Assembly (NCBI GenBank): GCA_031119395.1
Contig: JAVHYA010000043.1
Span: forward strand, 1-44,932
Direction: 5' to 3'
Length of the DNA stretch: 44,932 nt
DNA from: Pseudomonadota bacterium
Lineage (GTDB): Bacteria > Pseudomonadota > Gammaproteobacteria > Burkholderiales > Burkholderiaceae_C
Below, in pieces: positions 18,721 to 20,684 of this stretch. Positions within the stretch are counted from its first letter, which is position 1; each line of letters begins with the position of its first letter. Position numbers and translations under genes: made by a program. The notes under the pieces are model-generated. The model ran no database searches, was not told the origin of the DNA, and saw nothing but the letters and a program-made list of their open reading frames with translations.

Positions 18721-18762
18721 ATGGGCAAGCTCGCAACCCGAGGAGGTGCTCGCCATGGGTAG
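18721..18762 (+). other. Possible 13-codon leader ORF over the hpaD start
   Basis: ATG at 18721, 4 bp after the bug stop, opens a 13-codon frame that ends in TAG inside the second codon region of hpaD. Its opening ATGGGCAAGCTCGCA nearly repeats the hpaD opening ATGGGTAGGCTCGCA 34 bp later. The frame spans the hpaD ribosome-binding site GAGGAGG. It could be a translated leader or simply the relic of a short tandem duplication. Confidence 0.2.
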
Positions 18763-19678
18763 GCTCGCACTCGCCGCCAAGATCACCCACGTGCCGTCGC
18801 TGTACCTGAGCGAGCTCGACGGCCCGCGCAAGGGCAGCCGGCAGGCCGCCATCGACGGGCTCAGGGAGATCGGCCGCCGTTGCCGCGAACTGGGCGTGGA
18901 CACCATCGTGGTGTTCGACACGCACTGGCTGGTCAACGCCAGCTACCACCTGAACTGCGCGCCGCATTTCAAGGGCGTGTACTCCAGCAACGAGCTGCCG
19001 CACTTCATCAGCAACATGCCCTACGAGATCCCGGGCAACCCGCGGCTGGGCAAGCTGCTGGCGCAGGCGTGCAACGCGTGGGGCGTGGAGACGCTGGCGC
19101 ACGACGCGACGACGCTGGGCCCGGAGTACGGCACGCTGGTGCCGATGCGCTACATGAACGAGGACCTGCACTTCAAGGCGATCTGCGTGTCGGCCCTGTG
19201 CACCAGCCACTACCTCAACGACAGCGCCCGCCTGGGCTGGGCGATGCGCCGCGCGGTGGAAGACCACTACGACGGCACGGTGGCCTTCTTCGCCAGCGGC
19301 TCGATGTCGCACCGCTTCGCGCAGAACGGGCTGGCGCCGCAGTTCGCCGACCGCATCTGGAGCCCGCTGCTCGAACGCATGGACCACGACGTGGTGAAGA
19401 TGTGGGAGGACGGCGAGTGGGCCGACTTCTGCGCCATGCTGCCGGAATACGCCGTGAAGGGACACGGCGAAGGCTTCATGCACGACACGGCCATGCTGCT
19501 GGGCGCGCTGGGCTGGTCGGCCTACGACGGGCGCGCGGAGGTGGTGACGCCGTACTTCGGCTCGTCGGGGACGGGGCAGATCAACGTGGTGCTGCCGGTG
19601 ACGCCGCAGGATGGGTCTGCGGTGCCGAAGGCCCAGGCGTCGAGTGCGGAAGGGTTTCAGGCGGTGTCTCGGCTGTGA
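18755..19678 (+). CDS. hpaD: 3,4-dihydroxyphenylacetate 2,3-dioxygenase (LigB type)
   Basis: 307-aa class III extradiol dioxygenase that meta-cleaves homoprotocatechuate to 5-carboxymethyl-2-hydroxymuconate semialdehyde using Fe(II). Candidate metal ligands are His12 (ITHVPSLY) and His57 (VVFDTHWLVN), with a C-terminal Glu in VKGHGEGFMHD. The ATG at 18755 is preceded by GAGGAGG; a GTG at 18746 is in frame but lies inside that ribosome-binding region. It follows the bug gene by 37 bp. After it the operon is interrupted by a 598-bp segment before hpaF. The C-terminal 15 or so residues are variable. Confidence 0.93.
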   Translation: MGRLALAAKITHVPSLYLSELDGPRKGSRQAAIDGLREIGRRCRELGVDTIVVFDTHWLVNASYHLNCAPHFKGVYSSNELPHFISNMPYEIPGNPRLGKLLAQACNAWGVETLAHDATTLGPEYGTLVPMRYMNEDLHFKAICVSALCTSHYLNDSARLGWAMRRAVEDHYDGTVAFFASGSMSHRFAQNGLAPQFADRIWSPLLERMDHDVVKMWEDGEWADFCAMLPEYAVKGHGEGFMHDTAMLLGALGWSAYDGRAEVVTPYFGSSGTGQINVVLPVTPQDGSAVPKAQASSAEGFQAVSRL

Positions 19679-19700: not shown

Positions 19701-19947
19701 GGACCGGGCCCCGGCAAGGGGGCGGCGGCGCTTCGGTGGAGCGGTCGGCTGCGCCGACTGCCCTGCGATGCTCGGGCGGCCAGGCCGGCGCAGAACTCGC
19801 TGCGTTCACTCCGTTCACTCCGCTCAAACAGCTGCGCCGAGTCAGATCACGAAGCATGCCTGTCCTTCGGCAGGCATGCAGCCCGGCCACCCTGCGCTTC
19901 TCGGCGCTCCACAGGCGCGCCACCGCCCCCTTGCCGGGGCCCGGTCC
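19701..19947 (-). repeat. Structured inverted-repeat element, copy 1 (247 bp)
   Basis: Positions are given on the plus strand; the inferred sense strand is minus. P1: 19701-19731 with 19917-19947, 31 bp with one pair that is G-U on the minus strand (A-C on plus). P2: 19736-19743 with 19905-19912, 8 bp. P3: 19774-19785/6 with 19880-19892, with two or three pairs that are G-U on minus only. P4: hairpin 19854-19862 with 19871-19879. P5: 19786-19793 with 19832-19839, closing a 38-nt loop. P6: GTCGGC with GCCGAC (19744-19749, 19753-19758) and a 3-nt loop, GCA on the sense strand. Every helix has a counterpart in copy 2. I do not recognise it as a named RNA or repeat family. Confidence 0.85.
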
Positions 19948-20008
19948 TGCGCTCGGGTTGAACGACCGCCGTCTCCCTCCTCCTCCAAGTGCACCACCGC
20001 CGGTTCCA

Positions 20009-20256
20009 CGCGCCGTGGAGGGGGGCCTGGGGCGCGGGCGATTTCCGGGGCGGCGAGGCGCGCAGGCCGAGGGGCGGGCGTGCCAGCGCAGCATGGCACG
20101 CTTCAACATCTGACTTGCCGCAGCTGTCTGAGCGCAGTGAACGAAGTGAACGCAGCGAGTTCTGCGGCACCGCCCCTCGGCCGAGCACCGCAGCGGAGTC
20201 TGCGAAGCAGACCGCCCCGGTATGAGCCCGCGCCCCAGGCCCCCCTCCACGGCGCG
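20009..20256 (+). repeat. Structured inverted-repeat element, copy 2 (248 bp)
   Basis: P1: 20009-20039 with 20226-20256, a perfect 31-bp helix unrelated in sequence to that of copy 1. P2: 20045-20052 with 20213-20220, 8 bp. P3: 20065-20077 with 20170-20182, 13 bp. P4: GCGTGCCA with TGGCACGC (20078-20101), 8 bp. A 14-nt linker (20102-20115) follows. P5: TGCCGCAG with CTGCGGCA (20116-20123, 20162-20169), closing a 38-nt loop. P6: GTCTGC-GAA-GCAGAC (20198-20212). Unpaired core segments match copy 1 in length: 12, 14, 38 and 15 nt, with 9, 11, 35 and 12 identities. The element ends 20 bp before hpaF. Confidence 0.87.
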
Positions 20257-20276: not shown

Positions 20277-20684
20277 ATGCCCCACCTCGTCATCCTCTAC
20301 ACCCCCAACCTCGACGCCCGCACCGACATGACGGCGCTGTGCCGCCGGCTGGCCGACACGATGCTCGCGCAGCGCGACGAGGACGGCCGCCAGGTCTTCC
20401 CGACCGGGGGCACGCGCGTGCTGGCCTTCCCCGCGGCGCACTACGCGGTGGCCGACGGCAAGGCCGACTACGCCTTCGTGTACCTGAACCTGCGCATGGG
20501 CGCGGGCCGCTCCGACGCTATCAAAAAGAGAGCGGGAGACGCCCTGCTGGCGGGCGTGAAAGCCCATTTCGACCCGATATTCGACACGCAGCTCATGGGC
20601 TGCACCCTGCAGATCGACGAAAGCCCGGGACAGGTCTACGACGGCAAGCACAGTAACCTGCACCCCCTCTTCACCAAGGCCTGA
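20277..20684 (+). CDS. hpaF: 5-carboxymethyl-2-hydroxymuconate delta-isomerase
   Basis: 135-aa CHMI of the tautomerase superfamily, converting 5-carboxymethyl-2-hydroxymuconate to 5-oxo-pent-3-ene-1,2,5-tricarboxylate. Met is followed by Pro (MPHLVILY), the N-terminal proline that acts as general base after Met removal. [16 protein letters not shown] matches the family core. The ATG at 20277 follows GATAGGAACC. A GCTATC-type repeat sequence (20517-20570) is read in frame as [20 protein letters not shown], with no apparent change in protein length relative to the family as I remember it. It is separated from hpaD by the structured-element segment but only 6 bp from hpaH. Confidence 0.9.
20517..20570 (+). 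repeat. GCTATC-type repeat within hpaF
   Basis: GCTATCAAAAAGAGAGC, then a GC-rich spacer, GGCGGGCGTGAAAGCCC and a short AT-rich end. The layout matches copies at 2484-2537 and 26533-26588. It is read in frame inside hpaF without an obvious insertion, so it could be a chance resemblance or a repeat exapted as coding sequence. Confidence 0.45.

Follow-up and report, generated by a model that had tools for sequence, protein, structure and literature searches.

Two copies of a folding element stand back to back in the intergenic stretch between hpaD and the 5-carboxymethyl-2-hydroxymuconate isomerase (CHMI) gene of the window, by which we mean the whole 44,932-nucleotide stretch of Burkholderiales DNA analyzed here. 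We think it somewhat probable that such copies, or arms, are the inverted, outward-reading ends of a nonautonomous mobile cassette, and that they would act as folded single strands read in trans by a putative enzyme. The initial annotation had described the two copies as a selected folded nucleic acid. Our reading shifted from a structured RNA toward the ends of a mobile cassette because the arms are systematically paired in inverted orientation, because many of their loops are GNA loops of DNA type, and because relatives of the element bracket foreign-looking genes.

Arm 1 (247 nt, positions 19,701–19,947, minus strand) reads outward to the left, from 19,947 to 19,701, and arm 2 (248 nt, positions 20,009–20,256, plus strand) reads outward to the right, from 20,009 to 20,256. 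The sequence between them is a center of 61 bp (19,948–20,008), which leaves no room for a cargo gene. Together, the arms and their center occupy the whole intergenic stretch except for 22 and 20 bp. The left neighbor, hpaD (18,755–19,678, plus strand), encodes 3,4-dihydroxyphenylacetate 2,3-dioxygenase (HpaD_Fe; TIGR02298, 427 bits; PF02900), and the right neighbor is the CHMI gene (20,277–20,684, plus strand; PF02962). The divergent pair together with its center, rather than the single copy, forms the natural unit. Its best reading is that of a cargo-less cassette, and it would be functionally akin to the gene-bearing pairs found elsewhere.

Both arms share one fold, as had been proposed from folding by hand. 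The minimum free energy (MFE) is −181.9 kcal/mol for arm 1 (z = −10.9) and −191.5 kcal/mol for arm 2 (z = −13.2), values reached by 0 of 200 shuffles in each case. The outermost helix, P1, joins 20,009–20,039 to 20,226–20,256 in arm 2 and 19,917–19,947 to 19,701–19,731 (minus strand) in arm 1. Its sequence was said to have diverged while its pairing was kept; indeed, all 31 of its 31 positions pair in each copy, yet the 5′ strands agree at just 11 of 31 bases. Inward of P1, the fold of arm 2 contains P2 (20,045–20,052 with 20,213–20,220), a 12-nt segment (20,053–20,064) inside the conserved motif GCCGAGnAGCGCAG, P3 (20,065–20,077 with 20,170–20,182), and the P4 hairpin (20,078–20,101). These are followed by a 14-nt linker (20,102–20,115), whose consensus in the family alignment is TTCGTGATCTGACT, by P5 with its 38-nt apical part (20,116–20,169; TGTYTGAGCG...GCGAGTT by fold and alignment), by a 15-nt segment (20,183–20,197) that the alignment places inside the conserved motif CGAGCAnCGCAG, and by the P6 hairpin GTCTGC-GAA-GCAGAC (20,198–20,212), which includes the heptamer GCGAAGC. 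Between the two copies, both sides of a pair have changed three times in P2, twice in P4, twice in P5, and once in P6, exactly the compensated pairs that had been counted originally. The parts drawn as single-stranded fared less well. By reading, the 38-nt loop of P5 is contradicted as an unpaired region by TGAGC set against GCGAG and by an inner GTGAAC-GNA-GTGAAC hairpin with tandem G·A pairs (GTGAAC-GAA-GTGAAC in arm 2); in other copies, as we read their sequences, this inner part can fold into a hairpin of regular Watson-Crick pairs. The 12- and 15-nt segments, likewise taken to be unpaired, are so only in part, since they partly pair with each other as helix 2 of our model (98.8% of cells paired).

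The element belongs to a dispersed family. Of 60 genomes searched at the DNA level, 22 contain relatives, and a pattern search returned 18 named stretches, in Xenophilus, in Variovorax, and in one metagenome-assembled genome labeled Gammaproteobacteria. Alignment A2 was drawn from 65 first copies, from which 5 were dropped by length and 13 as near-identical; 41 of the remaining 47 were used, and six were omitted by hand. These 41 cores carry compensated changes in 29 of 37 predicted pairs. The covariance-model search proposed in the initial annotation gave a long-form model, R1, that matches arm 1 at 19,761–19,905 (minus strand, 166.9 bits) and arm 2 at 20,052–20,195 (plus strand, 148.8 bits). 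It finds matches in 15 of 15 genomes of the window's genus, with 2 to 26 per genome. In the order, 28 of 150 genomes have a match, one of them being the genome of the window itself. In an alignment of 126 distinct long copies, pairing is found in 98.8% of 4646 cells, and 1007 cells are changed on both sides versus 286 in shuffles, none of 500 shuffles reaching 1007; structures slid along the same copies are only 31–52% paired. The 126-copy alignment was fitted to the model and is biased its way; the unfitted A2 gives the same picture. Thus, the helices covary far beyond shuffled and slid controls, and the claim of a selected folded nucleic acid stands. Homologues lacking covariation and a recent, identical palindromic duplication had been named as findings that would speak against it, and neither was seen: in homologues the helices do covary, and divergence among the copies is wide.

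The original statement that the element falls in no named family also agrees with our searches. Rfam 15 has no match in the window or in the loci of 17 relatives, and the only two matches that it returns at E ≤ 10 are subthreshold, one to a microRNA family and one to a snoRNA family. Searches of the open-access literature by sequence string and by topic found no description of the element. Searches of a plasmid collection with three query arms yielded no arm; one record there matched 20% of one query, in a stretch with an A/T-rich hairpin. A phage collection searched with one query arm likewise yielded none. In viral contigs, one exact long-arm pattern had no match; one hairpin motif matched two contigs, and the stretches fetched from them gave no R2 match (R2 being the short-form model described next). 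Several draft contigs in four genomes (G001, G004, G007, and G009) end within or directly beside arms. For this reason, arm copy numbers are underestimates, and cargo may be missing from assemblies.

A shorter sister form appears among the weaker R1 matches, in other families. It keeps GCCGAGnAGCGCAG, P3, TGTYTGAGC...GCGAGTT, the P3′ strand, and CGAGCAnCGCAG, and it lacks P4. RNAalifold on 45 short-form sequences gives 17 pairs, 15 of them with changes on both sides. For the order, the corresponding model, R2, matches 76 of 300 genomes, and in a sample of the phylum it matches 7 of 299, two of these seven lying outside the order; its copies per genome are lower bounds, since 13 candidates were scored. 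The motif CGNAG occurs in the P6 region of 34 of the 45 sequences and in the P5 loop of 29. The 110 nt downstream contain G(G)CGAAGC in 18 of the 45 sequences and GGCAAGAC in 5 of them, and by reading, several short-form groups have an A/T-rich hairpin 3′ of the core.

The loops bear on whether the arms act as DNA or as RNA. When 78 copies are folded by MFE, triloops make up 143 of the 274 hairpin loops. The sequence C(GNA)G accounts for 110 of these triloops, N being A in 57, C in 47, G in 4, and T in 2; GNRA is absent among the 12 commonest tetraloops. The d(GCGAAGC) hairpin is much weaker in its RNA version. As DNA it is a very stable mini-hairpin, named in the references of a paper that describes a 2-bp hairpin as "extraordinarily stable" at 76.5 °C (PMC10527192). 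Wobble pairs are scarce in P4 (1 of 996 cells), though all four Watson-Crick types occur there, and in P5 (18 cells, 14 of them in a single pair), although pair types swap freely. Loops and wobble both argue against a structured RNA that is transcribed outward or by read-through and serves, for instance, as a 3′-end processing, stability, or attenuation element, as do the systematic inverted pairing and the bracketing of unrelated low-GC genes by arms. Such an RNA is unlikely in our estimate, despite covariation like that of known RNAs and an RNA-like wobble frequency in P3 (82 of 1134 cells). It would also fit the gene context, in which 36 of 39 pairs stand after at least one gene (13 convergent, 23 tandem, and 3 divergent contexts by crude gene calls, several of the pairs being orthologous).

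A structured RNA would account as well for a strand bias in the mismatches. On the drawn strand, G·T occupies 192 cells (77 in one pair) versus 12 for A·C, and in folds computed without wobble the counts are 116 and 35. This bias suggests one functional strand, by a test that its RNase P control does not validate: in the same no-wobble test, 29 of the 30 RNase P loci L271–L300 (20 further loci were left out) gave 18 G·T versus 22 A·C, so the test fails on a known RNA. It therefore carries little weight alone. The share of G·U pairs by MFE, 5.4% in arms versus 10.4% for RNase P overall and 9.2% for its GC-rich members, is lower in a way that is only suggestive. Overall, we lean toward the arm being single-stranded DNA with its 3′ side facing outward.

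Arms occur as inverted pairs well beyond the window. In six congeners, arms within 1.2 kb of each other make up 46 neighboring pairs, of which 45 are divergent (−,+) and one, a weak pair, is (−,−); 117 of 119 matches entered this count, the two omitted having E values of 0.04 and 0.12. A further 25 arms are single, at least 9 of them no more than about 400 bp from where their contig ends. Beyond the genus, a list of 30 pairs hand-picked from loci with two model matches contains 27 that are divergent; counting the two sites listed twice only once gives 25 of 28 distinct sites. The only convergent (+,−) pairs listed are three (L175, L176, and L177), from the two related genomes G107 and G060. 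Within a genome the arms are similar, and in the window's genus the same two arm types stand together at several loci of one genome.

At several sites, arms hold the same position in several species of the window's genus. In 28 of 38 comparisons of such ortholog arms (identity above 0.8, the 10 at 0.8 or less being left out), 2362 cells are unchanged, 74 show double Watson-Crick changes, and 3 show double changes to G·T, alongside 104 tolerated single, 116 broken single, and 12 double broken changes. Arms at shared sites thus change partly by double substitutions. The 33 centers of the genus are host-like, with a GC content of 0.683 versus 0.681 in the flanks. Host-like centers and same-place occupancy across species imply that arm activity in this genus is old or slow. 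G000 and G009 lack arms at the site that is occupied in L203; there, 27 bp separate the flank matches and, by reading, two convergent genes flank the site. Gain and loss are indistinguishable here, and loss may be the explanation. For a reading of empty sites to the single base, the flanks have diverged too far. A second apparent empty site, that of L196 in G011, proved instead to be an internal deletion derivative. This derivative, L230 (G011:C1:1345500–1347800), keeps only the outer parts of both arms, which fits a collapsed long palindrome. By eye, no target-site duplication is readable in the dispersed copies. Short tandem repeats with units of ∼6–12 nt lie in the outer flanks of six pairs in G001 and G011 (L196, L187, L212, L213, L218, and L203), perhaps by slippage at stalled forks.

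Outside the genus, arms bracket different low-GC genes. Among 12 divergent pairs selected for long centers, nine (L368–L372, L374–L376, and L174) have centers of 0.7–1.8 kb with GC contents of 0.40–0.56, compared with 0.64–0.73 in their arms. Of their 17 measurable flanks, 15 lie at 0.55–0.65 and two are low (0.45 and 0.49), such that L369 and L370 each have one flank as GC-poor as the cargo. The other three centers are host-like (L373, 0.70; L168, 0.665; L169, 0.61). Around 36 arms without a close partner, GC content is 0.518 on the inner side versus 0.593 on the outer side (Wilcoxon p = 3.6e-4), the arms being related and not independent. No transposase was found among 15 cargo products scanned against Pfam. 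Ten candidate products gave one Mrr protein (PF04471/PF14338), one 8xMP protein, one subthreshold DUF5026, and seven without a Pfam match, among which is a GapS1 (NF047931, 441.6 bits against a cutoff of 320). PADLOC recognizes one of the ten, the Mrr protein as mREase_IV (297.8 bits), and two of the ten match PHROGs families of unknown function. In L372 (269–1184, minus strand), the cargo looks like a pair of small membrane proteins, of which one is the 8xMP family member.

Location at gene ends could also point to a bidirectional terminator, an insulator, or a chromosome-structure element. By reading, terminator-like hairpins do stand beside the arms of gene-bearing pairs: on the inner sides of the arms in L368–L371, hairpins are followed by T-rich stretches, reading outward from the cargo, and are possibly intrinsic terminators between cargo and arms. 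The structure of the arm far exceeds what a terminator needs, however, and the cargo is bracketed, so we hold this alternative to be quite unlikely.

The stretch behind polA holds different cargo in related genomes. Arms stand there with different genes in three such genomes (L182, 5371–7998, minus strand; L375, 35–2653, plus strand; and L382), and it is a possible cargo hotspot. In G059 (contig C16), an orphan lipoprotein-like gene lies between the arms; in G189 (L382), a RelA_SpoT gene lies beside an arm, and the contig ends with the right arm off it; in G106, a DUF3800 gene lies outside an empty pair. One cargo gene stands beside arms at two different sites. The RelA_SpoT gene adjoins arm sequence both in G189, at polA, and in G059, on contig C14; the two proteins are 87% identical, and the arm ends align. 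Both examples are incomplete: L382 in its right arm, and L329, of which 51 bp of left flank were fetched and whose right neighbor is a ubiE-type gene, in its left core, which is deleted. The G189 protein matches PADLOC PDC-S33 with 348 bits, and from its sequence this RelA/SpoT-type gene is a defence candidate.

A further explanation needs no dedicated enzyme. Arms could serve as portable homology, with cargo swapped by homologous recombination between them, much as minimal mobile elements exchange cargo by homologous recombination. Different cargo at one site, long-lasting occupancy of sites, and the likeness of arms within a genome would all follow from it, and it is the best rival for the swapping of cargo. 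It leaves unexplained a kept multihelix fold with fixed motifs and the arrival of arms at new sites, and we judge it rather improbable as an account of the element.

Mobile elements of several known kinds resemble the arms in part. Miniature inverted-repeat transposable elements (MITEs) and mobile insertion cassettes (MICs) are nonautonomous, have inverted ends, and are empty or carry passengers. The arms, likewise inverted and empty or passenger-bearing, would be nonautonomous too, and they share with MITEs and MICs dispersed copies and presence or absence at given sites, which may reflect gain or loss. They differ in ends of ∼100–250 nt with a covarying multihelix fold, for which no matching transposase was identified. 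Integron attC sites have stems that vary in sequence yet stay paired, and they act as folded single-stranded DNA with a foreign gene adjacent; a foreign gene next to a site with variable but paired stems is the likeness here. The attC hairpin carries R″ (RYYYAAC) and R′ (GTTRRRY) boxes at its foot. As a candidate class for the arms it was rejected: the box pair RYYYAAC...GTTRRRY occurs in 0 of 78 arms of the genus on both strands, with 0.15 expected by chance. Moreover, attC sites stand in direct orientation, whereas the arms are inverted, one on each side, and dispersed.

REP, REPIN, and BIME sequences are extragenic, inverted doublets of hairpins (PMC2817692), and the arms resemble them in occurring as inverted doublets. 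The arm fold is much larger, and neither at 13 congeneric Y1 loci nor at L328 does the transposase gene stand between arms, as a rayt gene stands between its own repeats in that system. A REP/REPIN-like repeat moved by a RAYT (a Y1 HUH transposase) would explain inverted doublets, extragenic location, and hairpins, and Y1_Tnp is present in 14 of 15 congeners, G002, which has two copies only, being without it. In the order, RAYT at E ≤ 1e-10 occurs in 52 of 76 element-positive versus 107 of 224 element-negative genomes (odds ratio 2.4, p = 0.002), a weak association with one genome per species that is uncorrected for phylogeny; 24 of the 76 positive genomes have no RAYT at this threshold. The Y1 gene of G000 scores below the REP_Tyr_transpos cutoff (70.7 < 80). 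No arm lies around 13 congeneric Y1 genes within ∼2.5 kb on each side, where the best R1 match has 14.5 bits (E = 0.28). In these loci (L258–L270), a REP_Tyr_transpos-like Y1 gene is followed by the same gene start in all 13. The sole RAYT gene seen next to an arm, in L328, lies between the two copies of its own exact 32-bp inverted REP (725–756 and 1312–1343; CGTAGGATGGGTTGAGC...), which is adjacent to the arm and unrelated to it. Given 13 armless Y1 loci and the separate REP of L328, RAYT is not supported as the mobilizer, and we regard this explanation as largely refuted and very improbable; the weak association stays.

A further likeness is to the 3′ overhangs of Streptomyces telomeres, described as ∼300 nt of packed palindromes with GCA loops closed by sheared G:A pairs (PMC4513846). 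Packed palindromes are common to these overhangs, to the "rabbit ears" of parvoviruses, and to the arms, and the GNA loops fit. A 3′-outward polarity of the arms, which would match that of the overhangs, is suggested by the G·T and A·C counts whose RNase P control failed. Streptomyces telomeres end linear replicons and carry a terminal protein, whereas the arms lie inside chromosomes. Finally, the BRE repeat of Hot (2011), described as a ∼90-bp Betaproteobacterial repeat, including Comamonadaceae, that is tandem and variable in number (PMC3110155), could be related to our short form. Both are repeats of similar size in Betaproteobacteria, and BRE is set apart by its description as tandem and variable in number.

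Returning to a nonautonomous cassette with folded ends, we propose the following mechanism. In each arm one strand would be folded and active; it would most likely be single-stranded DNA, with its 3′ side pointing out of the element. Helices P1–P6 and the GNA-capped hairpins would form the recognition structure; a folded recognition structure would leave stems free to change as long as they pair and would hold the motifs of the internal loop and linker fixed. A putative recombinase or transposase, acting in trans, would move the arms plus the intervening DNA. The payload may be almost nothing, as in the 61 bp of the window, or an acquired gene, several times one of phage defence.

If the cassette reading should fail, a covarying multihelix element would still call for explanation: it is found in 15 of 15 congeners, it mostly forms inverted pairs in the six congeners where pairing was analyzed, and it extends through the order. 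Nonautonomous elements that carry passengers are known, and the folded ends may well set the arms apart as a kind of their own. As a tentative proposal, the arms may define a hitherto undescribed class of mobile gene cassettes, present in Burkholderiales and in further Gammaproteobacteria (in the GTDB sense), with telomere-like, folded single-strand ends built of GNA mini-hairpins, whose genes, often of phage defence, would be moved between chromosomal sites by a putative structure-reading enzyme. If so, these cassettes would carry defence and orphan genes by a route that current annotation overlooks, because no transposase has been seen so far, because no Rfam family exists, and because several draft contigs end inside the element. 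The two covariance models, R1 and R2, allow cassettes to be listed in any genome, and they raise a sharp question: which enzyme recognizes a DNA end by its fold.
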